DNA from: a virus
IMG/VR virus record: IMGVR_UViG_3300025141_000464
Span: 1 to 31,453 of that record
Direction: 5' to 3' (one strand)
DNA: 31,453 bases
Shown: one piece after another, positions 1-31,453 of the stretch
Layout of the letters: each line of letters starts with the position of its first letter
Numbering within the stretch: the first letter of the stretch is position 1
Notes under the pieces: generated by a model
Database searches by the model: none
Told to the model about the DNA's origin: nothing
The model's input: the letters and a program-made list of their open reading frames with translations, nothing else
Position numbers and translations under genes: made by a program

Positions 1-235
1 CACACACGGGGCAGTGCTCGCCAAAGTTGCGCTTTGGACAGAGGATTCCCCCGCGATGCTCGCCCACGTTATAGTGGAAGAACATTTCCTTCAACGGATC
101 GCCATCATTTGTCGGCACGATCCGAATATCTGTATCGCCCTCATCTGGCTTAAACCAGGGTGAGTTTGCGTCCTTGTTTCCTTCGCCGCGAAGGGATGCG
201 AGCTTCTTTCGCATCAGTTCCATATCAATTCCCAT
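1..235 (-). CDS. gp32-like single-stranded DNA-binding protein, partial (C-terminus beyond window)
   Basis: The first 78 residues of a T4 gp32-type ssDNA-binding protein are visible; the gene runs off the left edge. gp32 coats single strands at the replication fork and coordinates polymerase, helicase and recombination proteins. Seen here: a basic N-terminal segment with MRKKLASLRG, the block PWFKPDEGDTDIRIVP (residues 26-41), and a zinc-site pattern H54-x11-C66-x8-C75-x2-C78, very close to the His-Cys3 zinc site of T4 gp32. The ATG at 235 has an AGGAGA ribosome site 7 bases upstream; a second in-frame ATG four codons later lacks one. The gene is last in a replication cluster after the polymerase and the tubulin-like gene, and has its own strong promoter and a leader hairpin. 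Family assignment is confident; the C-terminal acidic tail cannot be checked. Confidence 0.88.
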   Translation of the reverse strand, partial: MGIDMELMRKKLASLRGEGNKDANSPWFKPDEGDTDIRIVPTNDGDPLKEMFFHYNVGEHRGGILCPKRNFGEHCPVC

Positions 236-265
236 TTTAATTTCTCCTATTTGTTGGGTAAAGTA

Positions 266-287: not shown

Positions 288-316
288 ATTGTATAACACT
301 CAACGTAGCTTGTCAA
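288..316 (-). promoter_or_regulatory. sigma70-type promoter for the gp32-like gene
   Basis: On the minus strand, TTGACA (316-311) is followed after exactly 17 bases by TACAAT (293-288). This is a consensus -35 box and a five-of-six -10 box at ideal spacing. The -35 box overlaps the stop codon of the upstream tubulin-like gene. The predicted start is near 282-280, giving a leader of about 45 bases. It is the best promoter match found in the window and implies that the host sigma70 polymerase transcribes the ssDNA-binding gene independently of the upstream operon. Confidence 0.7.
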
Positions 317-1152
317 GTGTAATTTTGTATTGCGTTAGTGTGGGCAACGCAGAGCCCAAAATCTGTGTGTTCTGTTTCATAAATTGCATAAGAAATTTTG
401 CGAAATGCATTGCGAGGCTTTTCCTTTAGCAAGTCAACAATCTTCTTATGTAATCCCCCTTCGTTTTCTAATCTGTCTTTATTGATACATAAATAATAAC
501 ATACATCTCGTTCCATGTCAAGCTTATAAAGCCACTTTTCTTCAAGATTTTTAACATTTAGCAATCCAAAAGTTCTAATGCGATTAATATCTAGTGGCCT
601 AGACGTCATTCCTATTTCAGGCTCGGCATGATTAAAATAGTTTACATAATGAACTGTTGAAAAGATTGAGTCATTTATTTTATCATAATACGTTTTAATG
701 GGAATGTCACCAATTGATTTTTCTACCATTACATTTGAAATAGGCGTAAATGATTTTAAAAGACCAGATCTGGCGTACTGCTGCAAGACACTAAACACTA
801 CTTTGTCTAACAACTTTGGCACACCTGTCATCAATTCCGCATCAGGCTGAATATAAAAAACGTCCACCTCTTTGTCTTTAATTTGCTCTAATATTCCAAG
901 TGAGTAGTTTGAGCTAAAGGACGAGCCGACTATAAAAAATTGAATACGATCGTCCACTTGAGAAAGAAACTTTTTAACATTCGGTATATTCTTTTCGTAT
1001 TGTTCTGGAGTGTCATGCGATTTTAATTTAAATTTGTATTTTGAGTTTCTTTGAACTTCTTTGTTCATCATATACACATTATAATTTTTTGTTTGCTTAA
1101 ATTTTTCAGCAATTCTTGAGGCCGCGGTTCCTAAACCAACAATCGATATCAT
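313..1152 (-). CDS. putative divergent tubulin/FtsZ-fold protein
   Basis: A 279-residue protein without a clear annotation that I read as a divergent member of the tubulin/FtsZ fold. Supporting order of elements: an N-terminal strand and glycine loop IVGLGTAASRIAEKF (residues 4-18) like the FtsZ T1 loop; a strand plus loop FFIVGSSFSSNYSLG (72-86) where FtsZ has its GGGTGTG T4 loop; DVFYIQPDAELMTG (97-110) like the following strand and T5 loop; a long helix with N160 in the position of FtsZ helix 7; and TSRPLDINRIRTFG (183-196) resembling the T7 loop NxDxxD region. The GTP-binding glycines of T4 are replaced by serines, so GTPase activity may be weak or lost. Its ATG overlaps the polymerase stop as ATGA, implying coupled expression and possibly a replication-linked role. 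A Rossmann-fold dinucleotide-binding protein is the main alternative. Confidence 0.42.
   Translation of the reverse strand: MISIVGLGTAASRIAEKFKQTKNYNVYMMNKEVQRNSKYKFKLKSHDTPEQYEKNIPNVKKFLSQVDDRIQFFIVGSSFSSNYSLGILEQIKDKEVDVFYIQPDAELMTGVPKLLDKVVFSVLQQYARSGLLKSFTPISNVMVEKSIGDIPIKTYYDKINDSIFSTVHYVNYFNHAEPEIGMTSRPLDINRIRTFGLLNVKNLEEKWLYKLDMERDVCYYLCINKDRLENEGGLHKKIVDLLKEKPRNAFRKISYAIYETEHTDFGLCVAHTNAIQNYT
493..521 (-). promoter_or_regulatory. possible internal promoter within the tubulin-like gene
   Basis: On the minus strand, TTGACA (521-516), 17 bases, then TATTAT (498-493). It lies inside coding sequence about 260 bases upstream of the gp32-like start and could be a second promoter for it. In AT-rich coding DNA such a match can arise by chance, and nothing else supports it. 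Confidence 0.28.
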
Positions 1153-2324
1153 AACTTTAACTCATTTAAATTATAGTAATCTTTTCCAGCACGTAAGTTA
1201 GCCATATAGCCATCTTCAAAAACATCTCTAATGCCAATTACCATGTCACGGTCTTCGTCCGAATAATCAATAACAATTTCATCATGAACAACATGCGAGA
1301 TAAAAGATTTTTTGCCCTCAAGCATTTTGTCAATCAAAACTGCCTTTTCTAAAACACGATCAGACGTTGTGCTTTGGATTAAGTAATTTAATGCTTTTCT
1401 CTGCTCCACTTTAATTTTGCGGCCATATGGTGTATGAATATATCCGTTTTTATAATACTTATCAAGCACTTCTTCGCGATCATAATATTCCGATTCAATA
1501 TCGTTTGAATTTGGATTGTACAGCCATGCAAAAAAGTATAACTTTGCTTCCTCTCTGGTCATTGTTAGGTCGTCAATAACATTTTGAATATTCCATTCGT
1601 GCACGTCGTATGGAGGCTGTTGTTGTCCGCACAAATCTAACAATGTGCGAATCTCGGCGCCATTATAATCAAGACTCATCATCAAGTCATTGTGAGGCTT
1701 GATTATGCGGCGCAAATCTTTCTTCAAATTCAGAATTGGAAAAGAGCCTGGATGTGTTGATAGGCGCCCTGTGATTGTTCCAAACATGTTGTAATCAATG
1801 CGTTGGTAATTCTTCATTAGCTCTTGGATTTTCTGACGGTTCATTGAAGAATAGAAGAGGTGCTTACAGTCTTCACTGTTAAGATTGAGCTTCTGATAGC
1901 GAATCTTATGAAGAAGCCTGTACACGCTATCTAGGTGCTCGTAATTGTCTGGCTTGTCGTATGTCTCAAAGACGTGCTCTGTGATTTTATTTTTGATCTC
2001 GCAGAACTGGACAAGGAAGTCGTGAGGAATCAAATCAAATACACAATGATCCGCCATATTAACCTTGGCAATCTTGAAGGACTTTAAATAAGCCTTCATT
2101 TTTCTTTGGGTAGCTTGAAGTTCATTACACAAATCTTCTGGGCAGCAATCGGTGATATTGCGCCCTCCAGCACGTATCCAGGCATACTCCACCGCTGGAT
2201 CTGTGATAGATGCGCTGTAACGCCAAGTCTTTGTTAGATCATCTGGAAAGTTTTCAAACGACAGCTTGCCGTCTGCGTAAATTCCAACACATTCTGACTT
2301 ATCATCAAGTGCTTGAAATATCAA
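1149..2324 (-). CDS. family A DNA polymerase, short exonuclease-less form
   Basis: A replicative-type DNA polymerase of the Pol I family, 391 residues. Visible motifs: TITGRLS (183-189) before the palm; motif A DYNGAEIR with catalytic D219; an O-helix R257-x3-K261-x3-F265-x3-Y269, where N270 replaces the usual glycine of the YG pair; YGRKIK (300-305) followed by LIQSTTSDR; and motif C VHDE with catalytic D348. F265 aligns with E. coli Pol I F762. The first 180 residues look like a thumb region (for example PHDFLVQFCEIKNKITEHV) and show no 3'-5' exonuclease DxE motifs, so proofreading must be absent or supplied by another gene. The first codon is TTG at 2324; a GGAGGT ribosome site ends 5 bases upstream, and the next Met is at residue 77. 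It overlaps the 447-residue gene upstream as TTGA and the tubulin-like gene downstream as ATGA. Confidence 0.93.
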   Translation of the reverse strand: MIFQALDDKSECVGIYADGKLSFENFPDDLTKTWRYSASITDPAVEYAWIRAGGRNITDCCPEDLCNELQATQRKMKAYLKSFKIAKVNMADHCVFDLIPHDFLVQFCEIKNKITEHVFETYDKPDNYEHLDSVYRLLHKIRYQKLNLNSEDCKHLFYSSMNRQKIQELMKNYQRIDYNMFGTITGRLSTHPGSFPILNLKKDLRRIIKPHNDLMMSLDYNGAEIRTLLDLCGQQQPPYDVHEWNIQNVIDDLTMTREEAKLYFFAWLYNPNSNDIESEYYDREEVLDKYYKNGYIHTPYGRKIKVEQRKALNYLIQSTTSDRVLEKAVLIDKMLEGKKSFISHVVHDEIVIDYSDEDRDMVIGIRDVFEDGYMANLRAGKDYYNLNELKL

Positions 2325-3661
2325 TAGCCACCTCCGCCTCCAGTGGTTCCCCCGCCGCCGGCGGCAGTGCCTGTAACTTGAATTGGTTCGCCCTCATCGT
2401 CATCAAAAACGCCTATCTCCTCTAGTTCTGTCGCTTTTCGTCTTGGAACTACTTCATTAATAATATAACTCAAAGATCCTCTGTAGTCAAATGGATGATT
2501 CAAAATAGTTTCAAAAAAAGCTAAAGCCCGGCGTGCAGAATCATCATTTGCTCCATGTGAAGTGTATACTTTCAAGCAATCTCTTATTAGCTTGTCCTGG
2601 CTTGCTTGATCAAAATTTGATTCTTCTTCTGCTATTCTAATTTTAAAATATAATTCCAAAAAATATTCGTGACCAAACTGTTTATCAAAATCAATCATGG
2701 AAAAATATTCAATCGGACGGCTCTCCTTTAATGTTGTTTCGCCCCCACATTGAATGGGCTCAATCTTTGTTCTTTTTACTCTATTGTATATGCTTAAAAG
2801 ATCGCGCTTGAAATTATCATAGTGCTTAATATATGCGTTTTCATAATGAGTGGCCATTATTGCAGCAAATGAACCGACGTTATATGTATTAGCGTAAGCA
2901 AGCATTCCTGTTGATTTTATATCTGCCACCAATCGCCATGGAGCGTTGAAATCGATCATAAAGCCGTACTTATTAGCCGCGTTAATGTAGAAGTCCCAAT
3001 TCGGGCTAGACATAAAAGATGCGAGCTTCTCGCTATCATTGGCATATTCAAGATCAGCAATTTCAACAACAAGGCCCGACACACCCATTGGACATAGCCT
3101 ACTTTTCCCATATGCTGCTTGTGTTAACGGATATCTTCGTGATGATCTTAACACCATGGACATAAGTTTTTTTGTAAATTCATCAAAGTCTAGAACATAT
3201 TCATCTTCATCTCTGAAATTATTAAAAATAGCATCTTTATAGATGCGCAAATGTCGAGCATAAAGATTGTCAAAATCTTCCTGTGCTTTGTACACCTTTA
3301 GTTCTGACAAGTAAGTATCTGAATTGTCTATTTGACCTTTAAGCATACATTTTTTGAACTCTACCGCCATATCAGTAAATGCATCCACGACAAAATTAAG
3401 AGCTTTCATGGGAATTTGGCCGGATACCAGCGTGCTATTAAAGTTTTTTTGCAGTTCATTGTGTATAACAGGCTTTATTGTTAGATAATCAATACCAACG
3501 CGACCATATAAGGCTTTTTCCGCTACCGTAAAATTAACTATATGGTCGCGGCTTCTGGGAATCTCGTTGCGAACGTCATAGACATAGGATTTATACATTA
3601 CCCTCTTGTAAAAAAGTTCTCTTGTTCCTTCCCGATTGCTTTCTTTATAATATTTTGACAT
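2321..3661 (-). CDS. conserved phage protein of unknown function with glycine-rich tail
   Basis: A 446-residue protein I cannot assign to a function; it resembles a conserved but uncharacterised protein of aquatic myoviruses. Seen in it: a charged N-terminus, a central block with LCPMGVSGLVVEIADLEYA (about residues 190-210) followed by a Trp-rich stretch ending NAPWRLVADI, and an acidic segment GVFDDDEGEP leading to a C-terminal tail of Gly, Thr and Ala ending GGGGGY. No signal peptide or membrane segment. The start is taken at the ATG at 3661, seven bases after AAGGAA; a GTG one codon earlier is too close to that site. It follows the hub-like gene by about ten bases and overlaps the polymerase by TTGA, so it sits at the virion-replication junction. 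A virion-associated role is inferred from position only. Confidence 0.6.
   Translation of the reverse strand: MSKYYKESNREGTRELFYKRVMYKSYVYDVRNEIPRSRDHIVNFTVAEKALYGRVGIDYLTIKPVIHNELQKNFNSTLVSGQIPMKALNFVVDAFTDMAVEFKKCMLKGQIDNSDTYLSELKVYKAQEDFDNLYARHLRIYKDAIFNNFRDEDEYVLDFDEFTKKLMSMVLRSSRRYPLTQAAYGKSRLCPMGVSGLVVEIADLEYANDSEKLASFMSSPNWDFYINAANKYGFMIDFNAPWRLVADIKSTGMLAYANTYNVGSFAAIMATHYENAYIKHYDNFKRDLLSIYNRVKRTKIEPIQCGGETTLKESRPIEYFSMIDFDKQFGHEYFLELYFKIRIAEEESNFDQASQDKLIRDCLKVYTSHGANDDSARRALAFFETILNHPFDYRGSLSYIINEVVPRRKATELEEIGVFDDDEGEPIQVTGTAAGGGGTTGGGGGY
2330..2341 (-). promoter_or_regulatory. ribosome binding site of the polymerase, within glycine codons
   Basis: The minus strand carries GGAGG (2341-2337) and GGAGGT (2335-2330) just before the TTG start at 2324. 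The bases also encode the terminal glycines of the upstream protein (GGA GGC GGA GGT GGC). This site decides the TTG start, since no ATG lies nearby. Confidence 0.7.
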
Positions 3662-3674
3662 CACAAAATTCCTT

Positions 3675-6600
3675 TTAATCTATGTTCTTGTACGCCCTTA
3701 ATGTAGTGCACTTACTAGGTTTATAATCGTCAGCAGATGCATCCTCATCAGGTTCATGGGCCAAGTGATTAACCCATTTTGCAAATATGCGAGTGTTTGC
3801 CATCCCAGAACCAAAAGTATGCTCTGATCTAATAATCATATAATACCCGCCGATTCCATATTGTGTCAAGTTTAATTCGTCATCGGGTTTTAAATTTGTT
3901 GAAGGGGCAAAGCCGCGAGGATCAACAAATATATAAGTGCCAGGAAAAGCCTGTACATTAGGATATGTGTCAATGTTTACATCATATACAACGCGCAGCT
4001 GCTTAAGGCCATCAAAGCCTTCTTGTTCAAATCTAACTTCTGCAAGGCCTTTTGTGTCTGTTTTGGTCAAGGAAATATTTTTTATAATACCCCTATCTTT
4101 GCCCAGAACATAGTGCATGATTCCTGCTTGAGCGTCAGTGGCTGTATCTCCTGTCATCTTCTCAAGCGGCTGTGTTCGGCCGGCATAAAAAATTAAATAA
4201 TTATCTTCATTTTCAACCCCTCCGTGCCCTCCATCGTTTTCGTGGCGCTTGCCAGATACATTTAATAGCGGCCAGCCTTCTTCACCCTGCTTGGTCATGG
4301 TGCCATCCGCCGCATGCACGCCTGCTAAAACTCCTGGAGTGGCACGACTAGTGGACCCGCCATAATATTTAACTCTTTTAGCTCCCCCGGTATTGTGTTG
4401 TGATGCGGCAATATATGCATATTCATGGCTTATTGTTTCGAGTTCTGTATACCTATACGCAGTGACAGCGGCTTGTTGCAAGCTCGTTCTTTGCTTAATA
4501 GAGTAATTAAAACAACCATCGTTATTTAAAAAATTTCTAACAAGACCTTGCATTAAGTCATTCATAAATTTTCCAAGTGGATAAACAGATTCTTGTTTTT
4601 TAGCTAGCTTGTCTGTTAGCCATTCTACAAAATATTTAACTGAAATTGGCATATCTCCAAAATTAACGTGAGCGGACTCTAAAGCGTTTTTTTGGTTTAC
4701 AATCTCCACTGGGCCTAAAATAATTCTGTATCTTTGAAATTGTTTGAGTGATTTTTGCAATTCTTTTTTCTTTAGCTCCGCCACGCACTTATTAACGTTG
4801 CCGCCGCTATATTTTTTATCAGTTAAAGTTTTTAATGAGGTTTGAATACCATGAATTACCAAATCAACTAAATCACATAAGTAGAAAAATGGAATAGTTG
4901 CGTTGTTCGGATCGGTCACAGATAAACTCATAGCAACAGATCGTGCTTTAGAATGCCCGTTCCATCGTTTCAAGGCCTTGCCTATATTAGTGCGCAAAGC
5001 AGAATCACTCTGGGCGCTTGTTAAAACCGCAGCTTCAGATTTGTCTGAGGCGAATGGGCCTTTTGACATCCAATCTCTTAGTCCCTCATACGGCATGGTG
5101 ATATAATAAATTTTAGCCTGATCCTCCATCGCCATAATTAGCTGGGATACCAGTATTCTTTTTTCTTCATGTATTTGCTCTGAATAGCTTTTTCTAATCT
5201 TATTAAGCTGATCAGGTTCACACTTATCAGACCAATATTCATATTCAAGATTTCTCTTAATTTGATTGTAAACAATAACAGCAGAGTCTTTAGTGGCCAT
5301 AAAAACATTATAATTTGTTTGATCAAAAAAGTCTTCAACATATGCTAAATAATTTATTGTAAAAGTGACTCGCCCCATTTCATCAAAAGAAAAATCATGA
5401 GTTGTTGGAGTTAAATTTAAAGTAACAAAAGAATCATAAATTGCATCTTTCACGCCATCTGTCATATGAGAAGTGTTGCCTTTTGGAAAAGCCCACCCTA
5501 TAACTGCTTTAAGTCGAAAGTTTAATTTTGATAATTCATCGTTTAATTTTTTTCTAATGTTGGTTCCTTTGCAGTCGGTGGATTTCATTTTCTGTGTATT
5601 GCTTGTTTTTAAGGCTAAATCAACATATTTATAGCCGTCAAAAGGTCCACTATCTTCATCGCACTTACCTTTACATTCTAAAAGTTCATCAAATGTATTG
5701 GCAAATATTGTCAATTTGGCTCTAATGCTTTTTTTGGCTGAGAATGGGTTGCTGCCGTCGTAAGTAAAAGAAAAAGTTTTTACTCCGGTGCCGGAACCTC
5801 TCTTGTTGCGGTTTTTTAAGGCAGACTGCAGCTCTTTGCTTTGATTGTGGTGACTGTCAAATTTGAACTCTATTTCCCCAGCCTTATCGTCGTCATCATA
5901 TCCAATTTTATATAGCCTTATTTGTGGCTGCAGTGTTGAAATGTCATGATTACGCATGTTAAACAAGTTAACTTGATTTGGATTTTGTGTTAACTTATTG
6001 ATAAATCCATAAGAATCTCCATCTATTAAAAGACTATAAGGAGGATCGCTATTTTTTGTTTGAATAGCTTTGCCGGCACTGAGCCCAGCCTCAAGCGCAA
6101 ATTTTTTGCTATCTGTTAGTGTCCCCGCCTCTGAGAGCTTATCGTATTCACTTTCAATGAAAATCTGGGCCCTGTCAAGAACATTTTTTTTGTAGTTGGC
6201 AATGGTAAATATATTGGAAAGAAGGTAGCATTGTTCTTTAAACATCATCTTCTTGTGATAGCCACTTCCCAAACGTCCGATGTCGCCGTCTAAGGACTCA
6301 TGGTATTCTAGCCATGCTTTTGCTGAAGCTTTATCATCTGCGGTAGGAGGATCTACGTCGTCGGGGACGTCCCCCGATACTATGTCTTCGTTAGCCTCAA
6401 CCAACTCTTTTTCTGCTTTTCTTAATGCGACATCTAATCTAAAAAAACAGGAAACAGCCTCACACAAATCCTCAGAGACTTTTCGCATGTAATTATAGGC
6501 ATCAAGCATAATTTCCCATTTAGCATGCTTATAAATAAGACCTTTCGCGTTTACGGTCTTCTCCTTGGCGCCGAACTGCCCCCTGTCGTGACCAAGAGTG

Positions 6601-8189
6601 TTGAAAGAGCTTGCGCCTTTTTCAGGGTGCACCCCTTTGGCGACGGCGTATCGGGTGGCACGCGTGGCCTTCTTAAAGCCACTCTGGACTGTTGGCTTAT
6701 ATTCACAAAGATTGATATGACGCGTGCCTATTGCAAACCAATAATTAAAGGTATCAGGACAGCGCCAGGGGCCCCAATAAAATGCTTCAAATATTGTACC
6801 CGCAATCCACCAGCTGCCGTAGCCCGTCCATCGGCCATTTGATATGGGGGCAGCGTACTGGCCCTCTCTCGCGAGTGACTGTTGGAGAATCTGCTCTGCT
6901 TTAGGGGTCCAGTTGGGATCCCCAAGATTTCCAACTTCACCATCGGCTTTTTTTCGTGCGGGGTGTGCCAGCATCGCCGGGCCATGTGAGCCGGCGGTCG
7001 CCCCCCTCTTATAATAAAAGTCCCCAACCGCGTTATAGGCCGCATATTTAGTAACTGCTGCTTGGGTCGCTTTATTTTGGTTGCCTAATTGATCAATTTT
7101 GAAGCTGGTTCTATAGTCGTCAGAGTTGAATTCGCCATAATACTGATTTGCATACGTGGTCCAGGCTTTAGAGAGGGTGGAGTTATAAGATGAGCCTTTG
7201 ACTGGCCATGCTGACGCATGCATGCGGCCATTGTTTCCAGTGTCACTTGCATTGTACGATGTAATATTAGTGCCATCAGCTATTACATAATTGAGCCCTT
7301 GGCCGGCGACGGTGCTGCGGGGCCAGTTATCGGGGCCGCCCAGCTTAAATGCGGAGGCGTCGGATCCAGCACCAAGTCCATTCTTAGCTACAAGATTATA
7401 TGGACTGTTTAGCACAAGAGCCGTATCGTTTGTCTCTGTGCTATTAAAATCATCATACGATGGTGGGCCATTGATGGTAGTTGTGTCAACTGCAACAAAT
7501 TTAGCCAAGCTTCCATCTGCGGGTCCTTCAAGTGGGTTACGAGTGCCGTGAAAAAGATCTTGCATTTTCTCGTACACATCTGATGGAAACTCCGCTGCTT
7601 CCCACTTAAGAATATCATCGGTCGTCATCGGGTTGGCAACCCATTCGGTCCAAAAACCATTGTTTTTATGCTGAGCGGTTGCTATTGAATTGCAGAATAA
7701 AGAGCCCATAAGATAGTCGCGGCCGCACGTGCCATTCTTCCATGGGCCAGGATCTGCTAGCAAAGCGACGTTGTTGAATTCTGAATAGCGCGATATAGCG
7801 TCCCCGGTCGCGCCCTCCCCTTGCATCCACGTCGTCCCCTTGTAGAAGTGCCGGTTGTCGCCCAGGTTCAATGACCCTTTTGTGCTTTTAAAGTTTATAA
7901 CTTCATCTGTAGAGAGGCCTCTAAATCTGGTTCTGTCGGTGGCGTCTAGGGTGTCGTACCAGGAATTCGCGGCGGAATCATCAACCCAGGCGGGCGTAGC
8001 AAAATAGTTAGGCTGGCCGCTGTTCGCAGGATTTTCACCACCGAAAAAAGCATTGGAGGCTTTGTTGTAAGCCTCCATAGCAGCTAAAGTTTTGTTATAA
8101 CAATCCATAGCATTATCTTGAAGAGTTTTCTTTGCTTTATCAAACTTTGAGTGCGAAGCTTCTAAATATTCAGCTGCTGTTGTTCCCAT
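3675..8189 (-). CDS. very large baseplate-hub-like structural protein
   Basis: A 1504-residue protein placed directly after the LysM baseplate gene. Its last part (about residues 1440-1475) reads GIGGYYMIIRSEHTFGSGM followed by ANTRIFAKW, the pattern that ends many hub proteins of the gpD/gp27/VgrG type, where a small beta domain closes the hub ring. A conserved-looking middle stretch (about 1175-1230) includes MPISVKYFVEWLTDKLAKK. The first roughly 550 residues are rich in Trp, Tyr, Gly, Asn and Asp and look like a separate extracellular or enzymatic domain; their DNA is markedly richer in G+C than the rest. Hub proteins of this order are usually 350-600 residues, so this one carries large extra domains, perhaps adhesive or wall-degrading, though I see no recognisable catalytic motif. 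ATG at 8189 with GGAG nine bases upstream. Hub role is inference from the C-terminus and context. Confidence 0.6.
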   Translation of the reverse strand: MGTTAAEYLEASHSKFDKAKKTLQDNAMDCYNKTLAAMEAYNKASNAFFGGENPANSGQPNYFATPAWVDDSAANSWYDTLDATDRTRFRGLSTDEVINFKSTKGSLNLGDNRHFYKGTTWMQGEGATGDAISRYSEFNNVALLADPGPWKNGTCGRDYLMGSLFCNSIATAQHKNNGFWTEWVANPMTTDDILKWEAAEFPSDVYEKMQDLFHGTRNPLEGPADGSLAKFVAVDTTTINGPPSYDDFNSTETNDTALVLNSPYNLVAKNGLGAGSDASAFKLGGPDNWPRSTVAGQGLNYVIADGTNITSYNASDTGNNGRMHASAWPVKGSSYNSTLSKAWTTYANQYYGEFNSDDYRTSFKIDQLGNQNKATQAAVTKYAAYNAVGDFYYKRGATAGSHGPAMLAHPARKKADGEVGNLGDPNWTPKAEQILQQSLAREGQYAAPISNGRWTGYGSWWIAGTIFEAFYWGPWRCPDTFNYWFAIGTRHINLCEYKPTVQSGFKKATRATRYAVAKGVHPEKGASSFNTLGHDRGQFGAKEKTVNAKGLIYKHAKWEIMLDAYNYMRKVSEDLCEAVSCFFRLDVALRKAEKELVEANEDIVSGDVPDDVDPPTADDKASAKAWLEYHESLDGDIGRLGSGYHKKMMFKEQCYLLSNIFTIANYKKNVLDRAQIFIESEYDKLSEAGTLTDSKKFALEAGLSAGKAIQTKNSDPPYSLLIDGDSYGFINKLTQNPNQVNLFNMRNHDISTLQPQIRLYKIGYDDDDKAGEIEFKFDSHHNQSKELQSALKNRNKRGSGTGVKTFSFTYDGSNPFSAKKSIRAKLTIFANTFDELLECKGKCDEDSGPFDGYKYVDLALKTSNTQKMKSTDCKGTNIRKKLNDELSKLNFRLKAVIGWAFPKGNTSHMTDGVKDAIYDSFVTLNLTPTTHDFSFDEMGRVTFTINYLAYVEDFFDQTNYNVFMATKDSAVIVYNQIKRNLEYEYWSDKCEPDQLNKIRKSYSEQIHEEKRILVSQLIMAMEDQAKIYYITMPYEGLRDWMSKGPFASDKSEAAVLTSAQSDSALRTNIGKALKRWNGHSKARSVAMSLSVTDPNNATIPFFYLCDLVDLVIHGIQTSLKTLTDKKYSGGNVNKCVAELKKKELQKSLKQFQRYRIILGPVEIVNQKNALESAHVNFGDMPISVKYFVEWLTDKLAKKQESVYPLGKFMNDLMQGLVRNFLNNDGCFNYSIKQRTSLQQAAVTAYRYTELETISHEYAYIAASQHNTGGAKRVKYYGGSTSRATPGVLAGVHAADGTMTKQGEEGWPLLNVSGKRHENDGGHGGVENEDNYLIFYAGRTQPLEKMTGDTATDAQAGIMHYVLGKDRGIIKNISLTKTDTKGLAEVRFEQEGFDGLKQLRVVYDVNIDTYPNVQAFPGTYIFVDPRGFAPSTNLKPDDELNLTQYGIGGYYMIIRSEHTFGSGMANTRIFAKWVNHLAHEPDEDASADDYKPSKCTTLRAYKNID
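3840..3869 (-). promoter_or_regulatory. possible internal promoter upstream of the 446-residue protein and polymerase
   Basis: On the minus strand, TTGACA (3869-3864), 18 bases, then TATTAT (3845-3840), inside the 3' end of the hub-like gene and about 180 bases before the next start. It could let the polymerase cluster be expressed apart from the tail genes. It is coding sequence, so a chance match is possible. Confidence 0.3.
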
Positions 8190-25222: not shown

Positions 25223-26419
25223 CTACTGTGAAGTATTGTGCACGTTAAAGGCGATCGCATGATATGTTCTGTTGGTGGTTGCGGAAATATCGAATGAGGT
25301 CCACGTACCTCCGTTGTTGGTACTAACATAGAAGGAGCGGTCTCCGACAGCTACCCAGCTACCATTGTTGTCGCATGCTACGTCCTTCATCGTCCTATAT
25401 GTAGTGCCGCCATCCACGCTCACGGCGCGAGATTCAGTCCAACTTTCAGCATTGTCATCACTAGTCCAAACATAGCCAGAATCACCCACCGTGATCCAGT
25501 TACCAGACATGTCCGTAGCAACGCCATTCATTGCACGATTGGTTCCGGCGCCGTAAAAGGGGCCCCAATCCATACCCTTCCCGCCGTCGACAGTGTTGCT
25601 GGATGTTAAATTATCTTTGTTGGTGGCGACCGATGTCGCTACCCATTTGCCAGCGCCATAGCCGATATTGGATTTTTGTTTATTGGTTCCGGCGTCATCA
25701 TATGTCAATTCCCATTCGGCGCCTGGAGAATCACCGTGACCCATACCGCCACTGTGGTTCACCCACATATCTCCTCCGTCGTTACCAACGGTGAGAACAT
25801 AAACACCATCAGCTGCACTACCGCTTCCGTTTGATACTGGGCCTCGGACAAAACTATTGGTACCACTAGCATCAAATCCTCTATATACTGTATTCCAATT
25901 AGCAGTGTCTGTCATAGATCCTGAAACATAATACGCATAACAGGAATTATTGGCGCCTGCCACCGTCCATGATGCAGATGTGGCGCCTGCATTAACATGA
26001 TGATGAGTGCTATACCCGTATGTGGGGAAATCATAGATGCCTTGTGGATCAACGTCTTCCCAGTTATCACTCCCAGATGGCACCCAGTTATCAGATCCAT
26101 CAGAAACCGCTACCCGAAGAGGGCGCGCGGTTTGACTGGCGGCCATAGTCCAAGCCTCGTTGCCAGCCGAATCGTATCCCCAGGCAACATCGCGATGTAC
26201 GCTGCTTCCCAAGTCCACCAGATGCCAGTGACCAACATTGTCGAGGGATCCCGTATTCCACCAATATTCTCCGCTGGCGCCGCATGCTATAGCCACGCGC
26301 CAAGTGCTGCCTGCAGCGGGCGTTGTGGCGCCATTAATTCCCTCAATGTTGCTTTTCGCAACACCATTAATTCCCTCAATGCTGGAGGCGGCAACACCAT
26401 TAACCCCCTCATACGCCAT
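25223..26419 (-). CDS. putative beta-propeller (Asp-box) virion adhesin
   Basis: A 398-residue protein whose N-terminus has three 11-residue units (EGVNGVAASSI, EGINGVAKSNI, EGINGATTPAA; residues 4-36), probably a trimerising or attachment stalk. The rest is Trp, Gly, Asp and Ser-rich and repeatedly reads strand-turn-strand with WxVAxxxG-type steps. Two Asp-box-like turns are clear: TSDDNAESW (319-327) and STNNGGTW (366-373), each followed by the expected strand, as in sialidase-like or Ycf48-like propellers. A HHH run occurs at 139-141. No sialidase catalytic Arg triad can be assigned, so binding rather than cleavage of glycans is favoured. It begins by a TAATG junction with the long fibre gene, so both are probably made together. 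Receptor binding is inference. Confidence 0.62.
   Translation of the reverse strand: MAYEGVNGVAASSIEGINGVAKSNIEGINGATTPAAGSTWRVAIACGASGEYWWNTGSLDNVGHWHLVDLGSSVHRDVAWGYDSAGNEAWTMAASQTARPLRVAVSDGSDNWVPSGSDNWEDVDPQGIYDFPTYGYSTHHHVNAGATSASWTVAGANNSCYAYYVSGSMTDTANWNTVYRGFDASGTNSFVRGPVSNGSGSAADGVYVLTVGNDGGDMWVNHSGGMGHGDSPGAEWELTYDDAGTNKQKSNIGYGAGKWVATSVATNKDNLTSSNTVDGGKGMDWGPFYGAGTNRAMNGVATDMSGNWITVGDSGYVWTSDDNAESWTESRAVSVDGGTTYRTMKDVACDNNGSWVAVGDRSFYVSTNNGGTWTSFDISATTNRTYHAIAFNVHNTSQ
26330..26410. repeat. 33-bp direct repeats encoding the propeller's N-terminal units
   Basis: Three tandem copies, the third incomplete, of a 33-base unit encode E-G-I/V-N-G-V-A-x-S-x-I. The plus strand shows ACACCATTAA followed by a CCC-type step and CCTCAATGYTG-like spacing in each copy. 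Copy number may vary between related phages. Confidence 0.75.
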
Positions 26420-29400
26420 TACGCAACCTCAATTATCGTACTATCGGGACAGAAGTAAATCGTATTTCCATCAACTGCCCATCCAATAACCTGAACAAAG
26501 TCTCCATCTGTATCGGGTGCAGTCTGTTCGGGAACGTTGTGTCCAGACGTTTCAGCTTCGGGAGTGTAAAGTCTGCCCCCAACGGTCCAAGTTGGAAAAT
26601 TAGTGTCTGCGCGCAAAAAGCCTTTCAATAAGAACACGCCGGTGGCATCAGCTGATATGTCTGCCGTGGCCATGGCAACACATGACGTTGTTGCTACAGC
26701 AGTCGCGACAGCTTTCCACATCTTACCATCGGACTTAAAGTAGACGCATTCGCCAGTTTCCAAATCTTCTCCTGCTGTGAACGTGGCTGTGACTCCGGAA
26801 GCAACAGTGTCAGCAGGGCTGGAGTCATAGTGAGTATATCCAGCGACAAAAGAGTTAGTAGTAACAGATAGATTACCAGCGACCGTTGTGGTAGAAGCCG
26901 CACCATTACCAATTGTTGCGTCTACCTCATCTTCGACATCTCCATCTGTAATAACGAGCCCTGGTTGAGTCTCCCCATCGTGCGAAGCAACAGATAGAGT
27001 TAACTTACCACCTTCTTGGCCATTCGTATGGACGGCAACCGATCCAGTAATAGCTGCAAAACATATATTGTGTTCACTTGCATCATCAGCGAAGAACTCA
27101 ATTTTTCCTGCGACGTCGTTTGCGGCGCCGGCAGCACCTTTATCCATAACAAAACGAAGTCTGGGGCCGGTAGCGTCGTTAGACGTGTTCTTGATTATAA
27201 ATAAAGGATCTTCCGCGTTTGTCGATTGAAATGTAGCTGTATCGGCGGTTACTGTTAAAGAGGTACCGGCCATCTTTAGATCATTGGTGCCATCCTCGTC
27301 ATATTCAATAGTCCAATCATCATTAGAGCCGAAAATCAGAGTTTTATCATCGACAAGCTTGACCGTATTTGAGAATGTGACAGTTCCGCCATCGCCAATC
27401 GTAATAGCATCATCGCCATCAGTATACTCAATAAGAGGAGTTTTTAAGCTTGTGGTGGCTAACACAGAGCCGCTAGCTCTAACATCAGCATTGTAAAATG
27501 CGTGGCCAACGACCTCAAGCGTACCCGAACCTGAAGCGTTTGTGAAAGTTACGCCTTGTAAAGTAGACGAGCCATTAACTGTAGCGTTTCCGGTAACGTT
27601 TAAGGCTGCACCCATGAAAGCATTTCCAACAGCTTGTAGCGTGCCAGACCCTGATAGATTTGTAACACCAGCTAGTGCCCCTACGTTTGAAATACCTCCG
27701 TTATTAACATTAATGCCATTACATGAAAGCTGGGCATCTTCATCGAACCCTCTATTTCCGGCACCACCAACTGTTAGCGCTAATCCCTTAAGTCCCACAG
27801 TACCAGAAACAAAACCGGGAGCGCTCACTACCGATGCGGCACCTGCGCCAATTGTCACATCAAGCTCACCATCAGCGTCACCATCTTGAATTACCAATCC
27901 AGCAGTAGAGGTGCCATCGTTCTCAGCAACTGATATAGTTAACTTACCACCTTCCTGGCCATTAGTGTGAACTTTGACCTGCGACTTGATTTCAGAGAAT
28001 TTTACTTGATCTTGGTTTGCATCATCTGCGTAGAATTCGATAATACCCGCAACATCATTTGCTGCACCAGCAGCGCCCTTGTCTTTAACAAATCTTAGTC
28101 GGGCACCGTTCGCGTCATTGGTATAGTTCTTAATTATAACTAAAGGATCGGTTGAAGTTTCCGCTGTAAAAGTAACAGTCTCAGCGTTCATCTCAAAAGT
28201 GGTACCGGCCATCTTAAGAGCATCATCACCGTCCTCATCGTACTCAATTGACCAGTCTTCACCGGTGCCGAAATAGAGCTTCTTGTCGTCTATGATAGTT
28301 GTGTGTTGGCTTAGTTTGATCCTTTCACTAGAGTTTGTCGTATCAAACGTCATGTAAGCGTTATTAGCTTCTTCGACTACAAGTGCGCTTCCCTGATTGT
28401 CTGGGATTTTGATAGAGTTTTCTCCCGCTTTTGTAAACTGAAGTGCTCCATCACCAGCAGCCAACGAAACGGCTCCGGTAACATTAACAGCTGCACCAAA
28501 AAATGCATTGCCTACAACTTCTAAAGTGCCAGAGCCAGATGCGTTTGTAAAAGTTACGCCTTGGGCGCTCGTCGTGCCGGCAAGAGTTGCATTTCCAGAT
28601 ACATTCAATGTGTTTCCAAACGTAACCGCGCCAACAGCTTGTAACGTACCTGACCCTGATAGATTTGTGAAAGTACTTCCAGCGCTTGCGGCCGCCCACG
28701 TTGGAACACCGCTAGCAAGGGTCAAAACTTGATCGTCGTCTCCCTTTGCCAACCTTTGAAGATTGTTAGAATTACGATAATATATATCCCCGTCAGCATC
28801 GGAACCTAAAGCAAACCCGCCATTTGGTATATCTAAGTCGCCTGCAATTGTAGTAAGGGAGTCGGCGCCTGCACCAATAGTTACATCGATTTCGCCGTCT
28901 GCATTACCGTCTTGCAGTTTGAGACCAGTGGTAACTGTGCCGTCATGCTCTGCGACTTTAAACTCTAATGTGCCACCTTCGGCGCCGCCTGTCATATCAG
29001 AGATCTTGCCAACGACCGCAGCATACATATGAACATTATCACCATCGTCTTCGCTAACAAACGCTATATTTCCAACGACATCGTTATCGGCCACACTGGT
29101 GCCGTTTTTAGTGAACTGTAGTGCGGGGCCGTTGGCATCAGCATTTGTATTTTTAATCTCAACACTAGGCTTCTCAGAGGTTGAGCTGGCGATAACGACA
29201 GAAGGCCCATCAATCGTAACAGCTGTTGATGCATTTATATCGACTGTTGGGGCCGTCATGTCAAGCGTTGTGCCCGCATTAATCTCAAGGTGTCCGTTTG
29301 AGGAGGCATAGATCTCTTCTCCGCCACCAACATCGTGAAACTTCAATTTGGTTGTAAGTAGAAGCGCTAGCTCATCCTCTGACGCATCATAAAGGACACC

Positions 29401-30486
29401 CTCGTTAGTGGTGGCGCTGTAGATTCTAACATCAACACCAGTGTCATCAAGGCCAAAGGTGACGTTGCCAGATACGTTTAGTGTACTTCCAAAAGTAGTC
29501 GCACCGACAGCCTGCAATGTACCGGAGCCTGACAAGTTTGTAAAGGTGTTTCCAGCAGAAGCGTCCGCCCACGATGGAACTCCACTAGCAAGGGTTAAAA
29601 CTTGAGAATCAGACCCTTTTGCTAGCCTTTGAAGGTTGTTAGAATTACGGTAGTATATATCTCCATCCGCATCGGAGCCCAGTGCAAAGCCGCCATTGGG
29701 TATATCTAGATCGCCAGCAATTGTCACAAGAGAGTCAGCACCGTTTCCTATCGTTACATCAACCTCGTCTTCTGCTGAGCCATCAGTGATCACTAGTCCT
29801 GGTTGTGTCTCGCCATCGTGAGAAGCAACGGATAAAGTTAGCTTTCCTCCTTCCTGGCCGTTTGTGTGAACCGCAACTTGAGATTTGATTTCACTAAACA
29901 ATACCTGATCTTGACTAGCATCGTCTGCATAAAATTCAATTATTCCAGCTACATCGTTGGCCGCGCCTGCGGCGCCTTTATCTTTAACGAACCTTAAACG
30001 AGCACCATTAGCATCGCTATTGGTGTTTTTGATGATAACCAGCGGATCTGTTGAATTTGCAGATTGCAGTGTATGAGCATCGCCGGTTATAGTTAAATCA
30101 CCAGTAGCAGTAATATCTGTTGCGCCGGCAATAGCACCAGCATTTGTAATTCCAGTATCTTGAAGATTAAGTCCGCCGGCCGTTGTGATAGCACCAACAC
30201 AAGAAAGCGTGCTTGAACCAGAAATAGAGCCAGTAGCCGCTATAGTGGTGCCAAAAGTTGCGGCGCCGACTGATTGAAAAGTACCGGAACCAGAGATATT
30301 AGTAAGGCCGGCAATAGTGCCAACATTTGTAATTCCAGTACCTTGAAGATTTAGTCCCCCAGCAGTCGTAATTGCCCCAACACACGAAACCGTACTAGCG
30401 CCACTCACAGCGCCTGTTATATTTAGAGTACTTCCAAAATACCCAGCACCTACAATTTCAATTGTGGTTGATCCAGAAATTGGCAT
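26419..30486 (-). CDS. long modular fibre protein built from repeats
   Basis: A 1355-residue beta-rich fibre protein. Short turns of the type ISGSGTLQAVG/ATFGSTLNVSG recur throughout (about 1-95, 315-342, 605-665, 940-1010), as in trimeric beta-helical shafts. A module beginning DPLVIIKN and containing RLRFVKDKGAAGAANDVAG, then HTNGQEGGKLTLSVA, occurs at about 147-258, 780-886 and 1093-1202, with a diverged copy at 439-547. A second module with GFALGSDADGDIYYRNSNN and LQRLAKG occurs at 258-342 and 549-633. The last 145 residues form a distinct domain (GECVYFKSDGKMWKAV, LKGFLRADTNF, VQVIGWAVDGNTIYFCPD) resembling small beta-sandwich domains of other phage fibres. TAATG junctions link it to genes on both sides. 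Tail versus head attachment cannot be decided. Confidence 0.78.
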   Translation of the reverse strand: MPISGSTTIEIVGAGYFGSTLNITGAVSGASTVSCVGAITTAGGLNLQGTGITNVGTIAGLTNISGSGTFQSVGAATFGTTIAATGSISGSSTLSCVGAITTAGGLNLQDTGITNAGAIAGATDITATGDLTITGDAHTLQSANSTDPLVIIKNTNSDANGARLRFVKDKGAAGAANDVAGIIEFYADDASQDQVLFSEIKSQVAVHTNGQEGGKLTLSVASHDGETQPGLVITDGSAEDEVDVTIGNGADSLVTIAGDLDIPNGGFALGSDADGDIYYRNSNNLQRLAKGSDSQVLTLASGVPSWADASAGNTFTNLSGSGTLQAVGATTFGSTLNVSGNVTFGLDDTGVDVRIYSATTNEGVLYDASEDELALLLTTKLKFHDVGGGEEIYASSNGHLEINAGTTLDMTAPTVDINASTAVTIDGPSVVIASSTSEKPSVEIKNTNADANGPALQFTKNGTSVADNDVVGNIAFVSEDDGDNVHMYAAVVGKISDMTGGAEGGTLEFKVAEHDGTVTTGLKLQDGNADGEIDVTIGAGADSLTTIAGDLDIPNGGFALGSDADGDIYYRNSNNLQRLAKGDDDQVLTLASGVPTWAAASAGSTFTNLSGSGTLQAVGAVTFGNTLNVSGNATLAGTTSAQGVTFTNASGSGTLEVVGNAFFGAAVNVTGAVSLAAGDGALQFTKAGENSIKIPDNQGSALVVEEANNAYMTFDTTNSSERIKLSQHTTIIDDKKLYFGTGEDWSIEYDEDGDDALKMAGTTFEMNAETVTFTAETSTDPLVIIKNYTNDANGARLRFVKDKGAAGAANDVAGIIEFYADDANQDQVKFSEIKSQVKVHTNGQEGGKLTISVAENDGTSTAGLVIQDGDADGELDVTIGAGAASVVSAPGFVSGTVGLKGLALTVGGAGNRGFDEDAQLSCNGINVNNGGISNVGALAGVTNLSGSGTLQAVGNAFMGAALNVTGNATVNGSSTLQGVTFTNASGSGTLEVVGHAFYNADVRASGSVLATTSLKTPLIEYTDGDDAITIGDGGTVTFSNTVKLVDDKTLIFGSNDDWTIEYDEDGTNDLKMAGTSLTVTADTATFQSTNAEDPLFIIKNTSNDATGPRLRFVMDKGAAGAANDVAGKIEFFADDASEHNICFAAITGSVAVHTNGQEGGKLTLSVASHDGETQPGLVITDGDVEDEVDATIGNGAASTTTVAGNLSVTTNSFVAGYTHYDSSPADTVASGVTATFTAGEDLETGECVYFKSDGKMWKAVATAVATTSCVAMATADISADATGVFLLKGFLRADTNFPTWTVGGRLYTPEAETSGHNVPEQTAPDTDGDFVQVIGWAVDGNTIYFCPDSTIIEVA
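26881..27210. repeat. DPLVIIKN-type fibre module, last copy
   Basis: Encodes residues 1093-1202. It shares KGAAGAANDVAG and HTNGQEGGKLTLSVASHDGE with the first copy at 29713-30048, but differs in the middle (SEHNICFAAITGS). A third clear copy is at 27829-28149 and a diverged one at 28846-29172. Confidence 0.75.
27829..28149. repeat. DPLVIIKN-type fibre module, third copy
   Basis: Encodes residues 780-886, with RLRFVKDKGAAGAANDVAG identical to the first copy and a variant end (SVAENDGTSTAGLVIQDGD). Confidence 0.75.
28588..28842. repeat. fibre module repeat, copy 2 (partner at 29461-29715)
   Basis: Encodes residues 549-633 of the fibre, nearly identical in protein to residues 258-342. Differences are mostly at third codon positions, showing an old duplication kept by protein selection or repeated exchange. 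Confidence 0.8.
29461..29715. repeat. fibre module repeat, copy 1 (partner at 28588-28842)
   Basis: Encodes residues 258-342 with the ALGSDADGDIYYRNSNN and LSGSGTLQAVG landmarks; it lies next to the first DPLVIIKN module, as copy 2 lies next to the diverged one, so the whole two-module block was duplicated. Confidence 0.8.
29713..30048. repeat. DPLVIIKN-type fibre module, first copy
   Basis: Encodes residues 147-258; reference copy of the module, running directly into the second repeat type. Confidence 0.75.
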
Positions 30487-31453
30487 TATTCATCGTCCTC
30501 CAGTGGAATCAGGTTCATTTTAAATTTCTTACCTGTCTTATTATTAATTACACATAAATAATCTTCTTCCTCAACAATTGTCCAATCGCCGCGATCATTT
30601 CTAAGGTGTAGGTCGCCAGTGTATACGTTTGCCCAGCGTTTCGCGGCAGATCCAAGGTTCCTAGCATTATCACTATCCGGAAGAACATCGCCCCCTGCAG
30701 GGCCTAAAATAATATCTCCATCAATAGTAAAGGTAAGATCAGCTGCAGCGGCATCATCATCAACCGTTGTAATTGTGGTTGCACCATGGGTGGTGGTTTG
30801 AATTTGGAAATAATCGCCACTATCGGCTGAGCTTTCAATTCTAAGATCGACACCACCATCCTCAACATCAAGCTGGAGTCCGTAGTTGAAATCGCCGCCG
30901 CCAGCTTCGATTCTTGTGCCTGTGATGAGACTGCTGCCGTTTGTTCCGCCTTGTGCATTAATAAGCGCACCGTATACAAAGGCTCCACCAGCATCAGCGG
31001 CATGTGTAAGCGTTGGGGTAACGTGTAAACCATACATATAGTTGTTGCCATTGGTGGCCGTGGTGTTGTCCATGTCAATATTGAGACCGTACATGGTGTT
31101 GTTTGACGTGCTGGCGCCAGTCTTATCAAAATCAATACTCAGACCAGTTACTGTAGCTGCGGTAGTATCTGAGTAGTTCTTGTCTAACTCGACTCCTGTA
31201 ATGCCACCATCCGATTGAACATGTAGCGCAGTGGCGTTAATTGCCGCGGCATTATTCTGAACTATTAGTGCGGTTTGTCTTGTTCCTGTATTTGATGAGT
31301 CATCATTAACTTTGACTGCGTTACCAGTTGTTAAGGCGTCTGCTGAAATATTAATTACCTTCGCCGTTGTTACAGCATCAGCAGTAATATGAAGCACATT
31401 CGCATCGACATTCGCAGCGTTGATTTCAACAGCTCTCTTATCAGTATCGTTGC
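30486..31453 (-). CDS. fibre-associated structural protein, partial (N-terminus beyond window)
   Basis: The reading frame is open to the right edge (residues KRAVEINAANVDANV precede the first GTG at 31397), so the start lies outside. About 322 residues are visible. The first two thirds carry repeated short strands with Asn, Asp, Thr and Ala (ITADAVTTAKVINISADAL; MYGLNIDMDNTTATNGNN), a beta-helix-like pattern. The end has NARNLGSAAKRWANVYTGDL, a motif that closes many fibre proteins, then HLRNDRGDWTIVEEEDYLCV and INNKTGKKFKMNLIPLEDD, a C-terminal domain seen in several aquatic phage fibres. Its stop overlaps the start of the long fibre gene as TAATG. Together with the next two genes it forms a fibre operon upstream of the head genes. 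Function in host attachment is inferred. Confidence 0.72.
   Translation of the reverse strand, partial: NDTDKRAVEINAANVDANVLHITADAVTTAKVINISADALTTGNAVKVNDDSSNTGTRQTALIVQNNAAAINATALHVQSDGGITGVELDKNYSDTTAATVTGLSIDFDKTGASTSNNTMYGLNIDMDNTTATNGNNYMYGLHVTPTLTHAADAGGAFVYGALINAQGGTNGSSLITGTRIEAGGGDFNYGLQLDVEDGGVDLRIESSADSGDYFQIQTTTHGATTITTVDDDAAAADLTFTIDGDIILGPAGGDVLPDSDNARNLGSAAKRWANVYTGDLHLRNDRGDWTIVEEEDYLCVINNKTGKKFKMNLIPLEDDE

Follow-up and report, generated by a model that had tools for sequence, protein, structure and literature searches.

A common uncultured lineage of T4-like phages carries, fixed within its replication cluster, a protein of 279 amino acids that was undetected by every sequence library tried and that almost certainly adopts, judging from predicted structures, the tubulin/FtsZ fold including its C-terminal domain. 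The nucleotide site of this pseudo-tubulin is degenerate, and the lineage very probably possesses a set of two tubulins, the second of which is canonical and is encoded about 40 kb away. The reading that we prefer, to which we give a probability of roughly 35–40%, is that the pseudo-tubulin no longer performs canonical GTPase chemistry and, as a core element of the replication cluster, would act as an adaptor that connects the replication complex with filaments built by the canonical tubulin. The window, that is, the whole stretch of DNA analysed, is a virus record of 31,453 bases with its long ORFs on the minus strand, and its tail sheath and baseplate-type genes indicate a T4-like myovirus. 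The contigs of the lineage are, as we believe, mostly of marine origin.

Predicted fold of the pseudo-tubulin

The AlphaFold2 model of the 279-residue protein, obtained with 77 sequences, has a pLDDT of 92.8 and a pTM of 0.91. Its secondary structure, as assigned by DSSP, starts with a strand-helix-strand element, continues with a long central helix (residues 152-175) and ends with the strands and helices of the tubulin C-terminal domain. The latter comprises residues 192-272 (positions 337..579 of the window, minus strand), with strands at 192-198, 205-207, 216-224, 252-260 and 265-272 and helices at 225-230 and 234-243. A Foldseek search against the PDB returned 814 matches at E <= 0.001, and all 50 matches listed were FtsZ or TubZ, the best with an E-value of 2.5e-13 and a TM-score of about 0.72. 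Within these 50, TM-scores normalised by the query were mostly 0.61-0.74, with two Spiroplasma FtsZ rows showing a large rmsd, and the FtsZ alignments span the full length of the model, C-terminal domain included. With regard to viral models (BFVD, E <= 0.001), proteins named FtsZ or cell division protein lead the matches, which also include a tubulin-like protein. Furthermore, a second model, built for a homologue that is 36-37% identical, reached a pLDDT of 90.7, and the 50 PDB matches listed for it were FtsZ, TubZ and CetZ only.

At the sequence level, nothing significant was found for the protein in Pfam, PHROGs, NCBIfam, PADLOC or PDB chains. It does not reach the curated cut-off of PF00091, for which one divergent relative gave an E-value of 0.1 and 13.3 bits. 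Comparison of the tubulin-like family by hhalign with FtsZ, PhuZ and the canonical phage tubulin was not significant (probability 0.3 for the PhuZ family), and the positive control, the canonical phage tubulin against FtsZ, scored 96.6%. Sequence homology to tubulins is therefore not claimed. The lack of sequence-level detection, together with weak Pfam matches to Rossmann-type families (GARS_N, E 0.026), is what would be expected of an unrelated Rossmann-like fold resembling FtsZ by chance. Such a coincidence is nonetheless highly improbable in view of two confident models of proteins 36% identical, of the FtsZ, TubZ or CetZ identity of all 50 PDB matches listed and of the presence of the C-terminal domain.

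An earlier note, made from the sequence alone, had suspected a tubulin/FtsZ fold, proposed that a profile-profile search might reveal tubulin kinship and named a plain Rossmann or other fold without the tubulin C-terminal domain as the outcome that would refute the idea. Structure prediction and structural alignment bear out the fold, with whole-length FtsZ/TubZ matches and an agreeing 36%-identical homologue; the tubulin C-terminal domain in the confident model excludes the plain Rossmann fold as far as prediction allows; and the profile-profile search did not reveal the kinship.

Conservation and genomic setting

The ORF of the pseudo-tubulin (family A3) lies at positions 313..1152 (coding 316-1152 plus the stop codon) on the minus strand. 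It is not a chance ORF, since it has at least 548 relatives in IMG/VR (E <= 1e-3), strict synteny and a dN/dS of 0.04-0.06 between the window gene and five near relatives, a value that indicates strong purifying selection and is only approximate because synonymous sites are near saturation. Conservation is given for 77 sequences, i.e. the window protein and 76 dereplicated members, which show 56-87% identity to it; divergent members, reached via their canonical tubulin, are 35-48% identical to the window protein (alignment A9). No relative was found among the 50,697 phage records of INPHARED (tblastn) or in the genome contigs of 84,980 GTDB species.

The gene is linked by an ATGA stop/start overlap (1149..1152, minus strand) to that of a compact family A DNA polymerase domain of 391 aa (1149..2324, minus strand; PF00476 at 1.1e-11, phrog_17 at 2.1e-17). 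The TTG start of the polymerase gene in turn overlaps, as TTGA, the stop of a gene for a conserved 447-aa protein of unassigned function (2321..3664, minus strand), for which there was no clear Pfam or PHROG match. PolA-like loci occur once per genome in seven long relatives, in which the family B profile PF00136 had no match, and this compact PolA-type enzyme is apparently the sole Pfam family A or B polymerase of those seven. Motif C of the polymerase reads HDE in the window and YDA in the counterparts of Microcystis phage Mel-JY01 and of the 484-kb phage LR756508.

On the other side of the pseudo-tubulin gene lies that of a gp32-type ssDNA-binding protein (SSB), of which the window holds the N-terminal part (1..235, minus strand, cut by the window edge). 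It starts at position 235 with MGIDMELMRKKLASLRGE..., is preceded by an AGGAG ribosome-binding-like site (244..248, minus strand) and is identified through a full-length relative matching phrog_1192 (single strand DNA binding protein) at 1.8e-26. Dereplicated loci follow one fixed order: a 113-aa baseplate-type protein, a very long protein, a protein of about 420 aa, the PolA-like polymerase, the tubulin-like protein and the SSB, followed, sometimes past insertions, by UvsX, a 5'-3' exonuclease, a DnaB-like helicase and ribonucleotide reductase. The succession polymerase, tubulin-like gene, SSB, UvsX, exonuclease and helicase persists at 33-38% identity. Mel-JY01 and LR756508 have the neighbouring genes in this order and lack the tubulin-like gene at the matching place. 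Thus the ORF of the earlier note exists, on a strand that it had left unstated, and its description of a gene coupled by ATGA to a polymerase, followed by an ssDNA-binding gene and embedded in a replication cluster holds throughout.

The high similarity of the predicted fold to FtsZ could also be expected of a host FtsZ antagonist, a tubulin mimic that would poison the division ring so that the cell keeps growing during infection. The phage FtsZ inhibitors known to us are small accessory genes, whereas the pseudo-tubulin is a core gene locked in the replication cluster with a dN/dS of about 0.05, and we regard this role as improbable. Phage inhibitors of FtsZ are, for their part, common, for instance Hdi of T5 (PMC10714956) and Kil of lambda (PMC3961180).

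A degenerate nucleotide site

The equivalent of the T1 nucleotide loop corresponds to residues 4-14 (IVGLGTAASRI; 1111..1143, minus strand), in which G8 is invariant, G6 is found in 76 and S12 in 70 of the 77 sequences. The T4 phosphate loop is represented by residues 76-82 (907..927, minus strand), where GSSFSSN replaces GGGTGTG. Its pattern GSSxSSN is well conserved (G76 77/77, S78 74/77, S80 76/77, S81 76/77, N82 72/77) and stands in place of the glycine-rich signature GGGTGTG or GGGTGSG. Divergent members carry GGGGKAS, GGAGDIS, GDSLLAN or GADYESA as T4, with GLGQAGCNIA as T1. Among these, glycine-rich intermediates such as GGGGKAS and GGAGDIS suggest that the loop degenerated from that of an ordinary tubulin, and the divergent loops look like a series leading from the normal tubulin form to the serine-rich form.

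Other positions of the site are retained. P103 and D104 in T5 and E144 in H6 are invariant (77/77), as is N160 (codon 673-675, minus strand) in the H7-equivalent helix, which DSSP places at residues 152-175 of the model (628..699, minus strand). N140, at the T6 position (codon 733-735, minus strand), is kept in 74 of 77. N140 and N160 align with N165 and N186 of E. coli FtsZ in an hhalign path that is not significant and agrees with the predicted secondary structure; in FtsZ and tubulin these are guanine-contact positions. Given the model helix and this non-significant path, the guanine-contact asparagines on H7 and T6 are likely present at their positions, and N160 may instead be conserved for folding.

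In contrast to this guanine side, the T3 loop is absent. The T7-loop equivalent (residues 176-191; 580..627, minus strand) has no family-wide catalytic acid, be it NxDxxD or an equivalent, once divergent members are included: residue 188 is aspartate in 38 and glutamate in 28 of 77 sequences, with other residues in the rest, and E179 is kept in 73 of 77, yet lost in the divergent members. Overall, the guanine side of the site was kept and its phosphate and catalytic side was degraded. Binding of a guanine nucleotide seems plausible, and hydrolysis of the FtsZ type does not. The earlier note had read a glycine loop at residues 6-12 (G6-L-G-T-A-A-S12), a serine-rich loop at 76-84 (GSSFSSNYS) in place of the usual signature, Asn160 in a long helix and a T7-like region around D188; all of these are present and the first three conserved, but D188 itself is not. 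Its idea of a non-polymerising replication accessory would fit a protein that has neither a T3 loop nor a T7 acid kept throughout the family.

The asparagines at the guanine positions and the conserved GSSxSSN loop might also be taken as signs of a self-sufficient, unusual cytomotive filament, similar in action to PhuZ or TubZ, with GTP bound via the serine-rich loop. We find this improbable for a protein with neither a T3 loop nor a conserved T7 catalytic acid, in phages where a canonical paralogue is already there.

A canonical tubulin in the same phages

A PF00091 search of the relatives revealed a separate tubulin of about 380 aa with an acidic N-terminal extension, exemplified by the genes at L222:14545-15693 (G001), L244:6284-7432, L245:7071-8210 (minus strand) and L246:6974-8098, with a further 241 relatives. 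Its motifs GVGGGGNK, AGGGGGTGSS, LDNER and FDSKDLE are intact, it scores 34.9 and 32.9 bits against PF00091 (cut-off 33), going beyond the cut-off in the frame-wise genome search, and it matches Staphylococcus aureus FtsZ (4e-9) and 3zid, a tubulin/FtsZ GTPase (5e-9). On a 190-kb contig it directly follows RuvC-like, primase and fused SbcCD-like genes. In INPHARED it is only weakly matched, the nearest named record being gp138 of Bacillus phage G, 'putative FtsZ-like'; most of the phage 'FtsZ' matches in that collection look like host DNA inside phage records and were set aside. The BFVD entry A0A6J5RW92, 'FtsZ Cell division GTPase', may, by its name only, represent the canonical tubulin of the lineage too. 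In L222:15699-17954, after the canonical tubulin, several proteins begin with a similar short motif (MKLIxExW..., MKITKAQLKKLIxEE), which may be a shared tag for targeting or for a scaffold.

In each of the 15 contigs that contain both tubulin genes, the two share a strand and the canonical gene lies 31-83 kb upstream of the degenerate one. In two more contigs the canonical gene is cut by the contig end, and one of these holds a relative whose identity to the window protein is 86%. No counterexample to the two-tubulin set was found among contigs reaching the gene's place; long contigs with the canonical gene only were rejected as exceptions, as they end before the polymerase cluster or are without it. 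Mel-JY01 and LR756508, which lack the tubulin-like gene, have no convincing canonical tubulin. The window ends before the expected place of its own second tubulin, which is thus predicted for this phage. The unusual setting that the earlier note had envisaged for a degenerate tubulin stands with regard to the replication cluster, but the protein is not alone, given the canonical tubulin of the same phages.

A possible link between replication and filaments

The tubulin pair in the same phages suggests a two-part cytoskeleton tied to DNA replication. In the mechanism that we infer, the pseudo-tubulin would still bind a guanine nucleotide or a similar ligand, without hydrolysing it in the manner of FtsZ, would contact the polymerase and/or the SSB and, via its tubulin fold, would cap or join the filaments that the canonical phage tubulin forms; DNA under replication would in this way be tethered to and positioned by them. 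A full division of labour, in which the canonical GTPase makes the filaments and the pseudo-tubulin, bound to the replisome and without hydrolysis of its own, links the replicating genome to them, is put forward tentatively. AlpA/AlpC (PMC4446434) offers a precedent, in which an adaptor connects phage DNA with phage-encoded actin-like filaments and supports replication.

Against an adaptor counts that the genes of the two tubulins lie apart and that the window itself is without the second. The two might occur together simply as core genes of a single lineage; the pairwise-identity (mirror-tree) correlation, r 0.61, is a value that shared ancestry alone would also give, and it does not separate partnership from ancestry. 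The translational coupling to the polymerase and the fixed place before the SSB would equally suit a replication accessory unconnected with filaments, which might act as a polymerase processivity factor, load the SSB or sense nucleotides, and for which the tubulin fold would be a mere scaffold and the second tubulin irrelevant. The degenerate T4, the lack of T3 and of a conserved T7 acid agree with it, since a sequence with these features does not demand polymerisation. Such a role leaves unexplained why the canonical tubulin is kept in every contig reaching its place, and we consider it possible, if somewhat less likely than the adaptor. Should the pair work together, as the adaptor reading holds, these phages would offer a simple and testable example of the positioning of phage replication inside the cell, and also of a tubulin losing its GTPase and gaining a new job, with intermediates persisting in related phages.

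Comparison with known systems

FtsZ (PDB 6rvn, 4dxd and others), which gives the best Foldseek matches, shares with the pseudo-tubulin the whole fold, the order of secondary-structure elements and the asparagines at T6 and H7. However, the two are only 8-14% identical, and the pseudo-tubulin, with 279 aa, lacks GGGTGTG, the T3 loop, the NxDxxD of T7 and the long C-terminal tail, and lies in a phage replication cluster instead of among division genes. TubZ (PDB 4ei7, 2xka) resembles it in fold (E 8.6e-13; TM 0.61-0.69) and in its extrachromosomal DNA context, but has about 400 aa, an intact GTPase site and the adaptor TubR, whereas the neighbours of the pseudo-tubulin are polymerase and SSB. 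PhuZ of the phiKZ-like nucleus-forming phages is likewise a phage-encoded tubulin fold, with PhuZ-like proteins among the BFVD matches, yet it keeps the glycine loop and its hhalign comparison was not significant. In a single-sequence search of limited sensitivity, in which the control was found, the nuclear shell protein (chimallin, phiKZ gp54) had no match in eight long relatives. The canonical tubulin of the lineage belongs to the same phages and superfamily, and differs in its intact GGGGGTGSS loop, its T7-like DSKD, its length of about 380 aa and its PF00091 match. AlpA/AlpC of prophage CGP3 follows the proposed logic of a filament protein and an adaptor aiding phage DNA replication, but combines an actin-like filament with a DNA-binding adaptor and is not tubulin-fold (PMC4446434).

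In the open-access literature, phage tubulins are described mainly from nucleus-forming and plasmid-like phages; we found described there neither a pair of tubulins in a single phage, nor a degenerate tubulin within the replication cluster of a T4-like phage, nor a division of labour between active and inactive tubulins in phages. Two distinct FtsZ/tubulin types have been counted among jumbo phages (PMC7824862), and new FtsZ-like families have been reported in bacteria (PMC2875224).

Other genes of the window

Between the baseplate-type genes and the replication cluster, positions 3675-8189 (minus strand) encode a conserved 1504-aa protein without a PHROG match, whose relatives measure about 1070-1340 aa. 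At 26419-31397 (minus strand) lie genes for proteins of 1355 and 303 aa, the former with repeated modules (GSGTLQAVGATTFGSTLNVSG and similar), which are likely tail fibre or adhesin parts.
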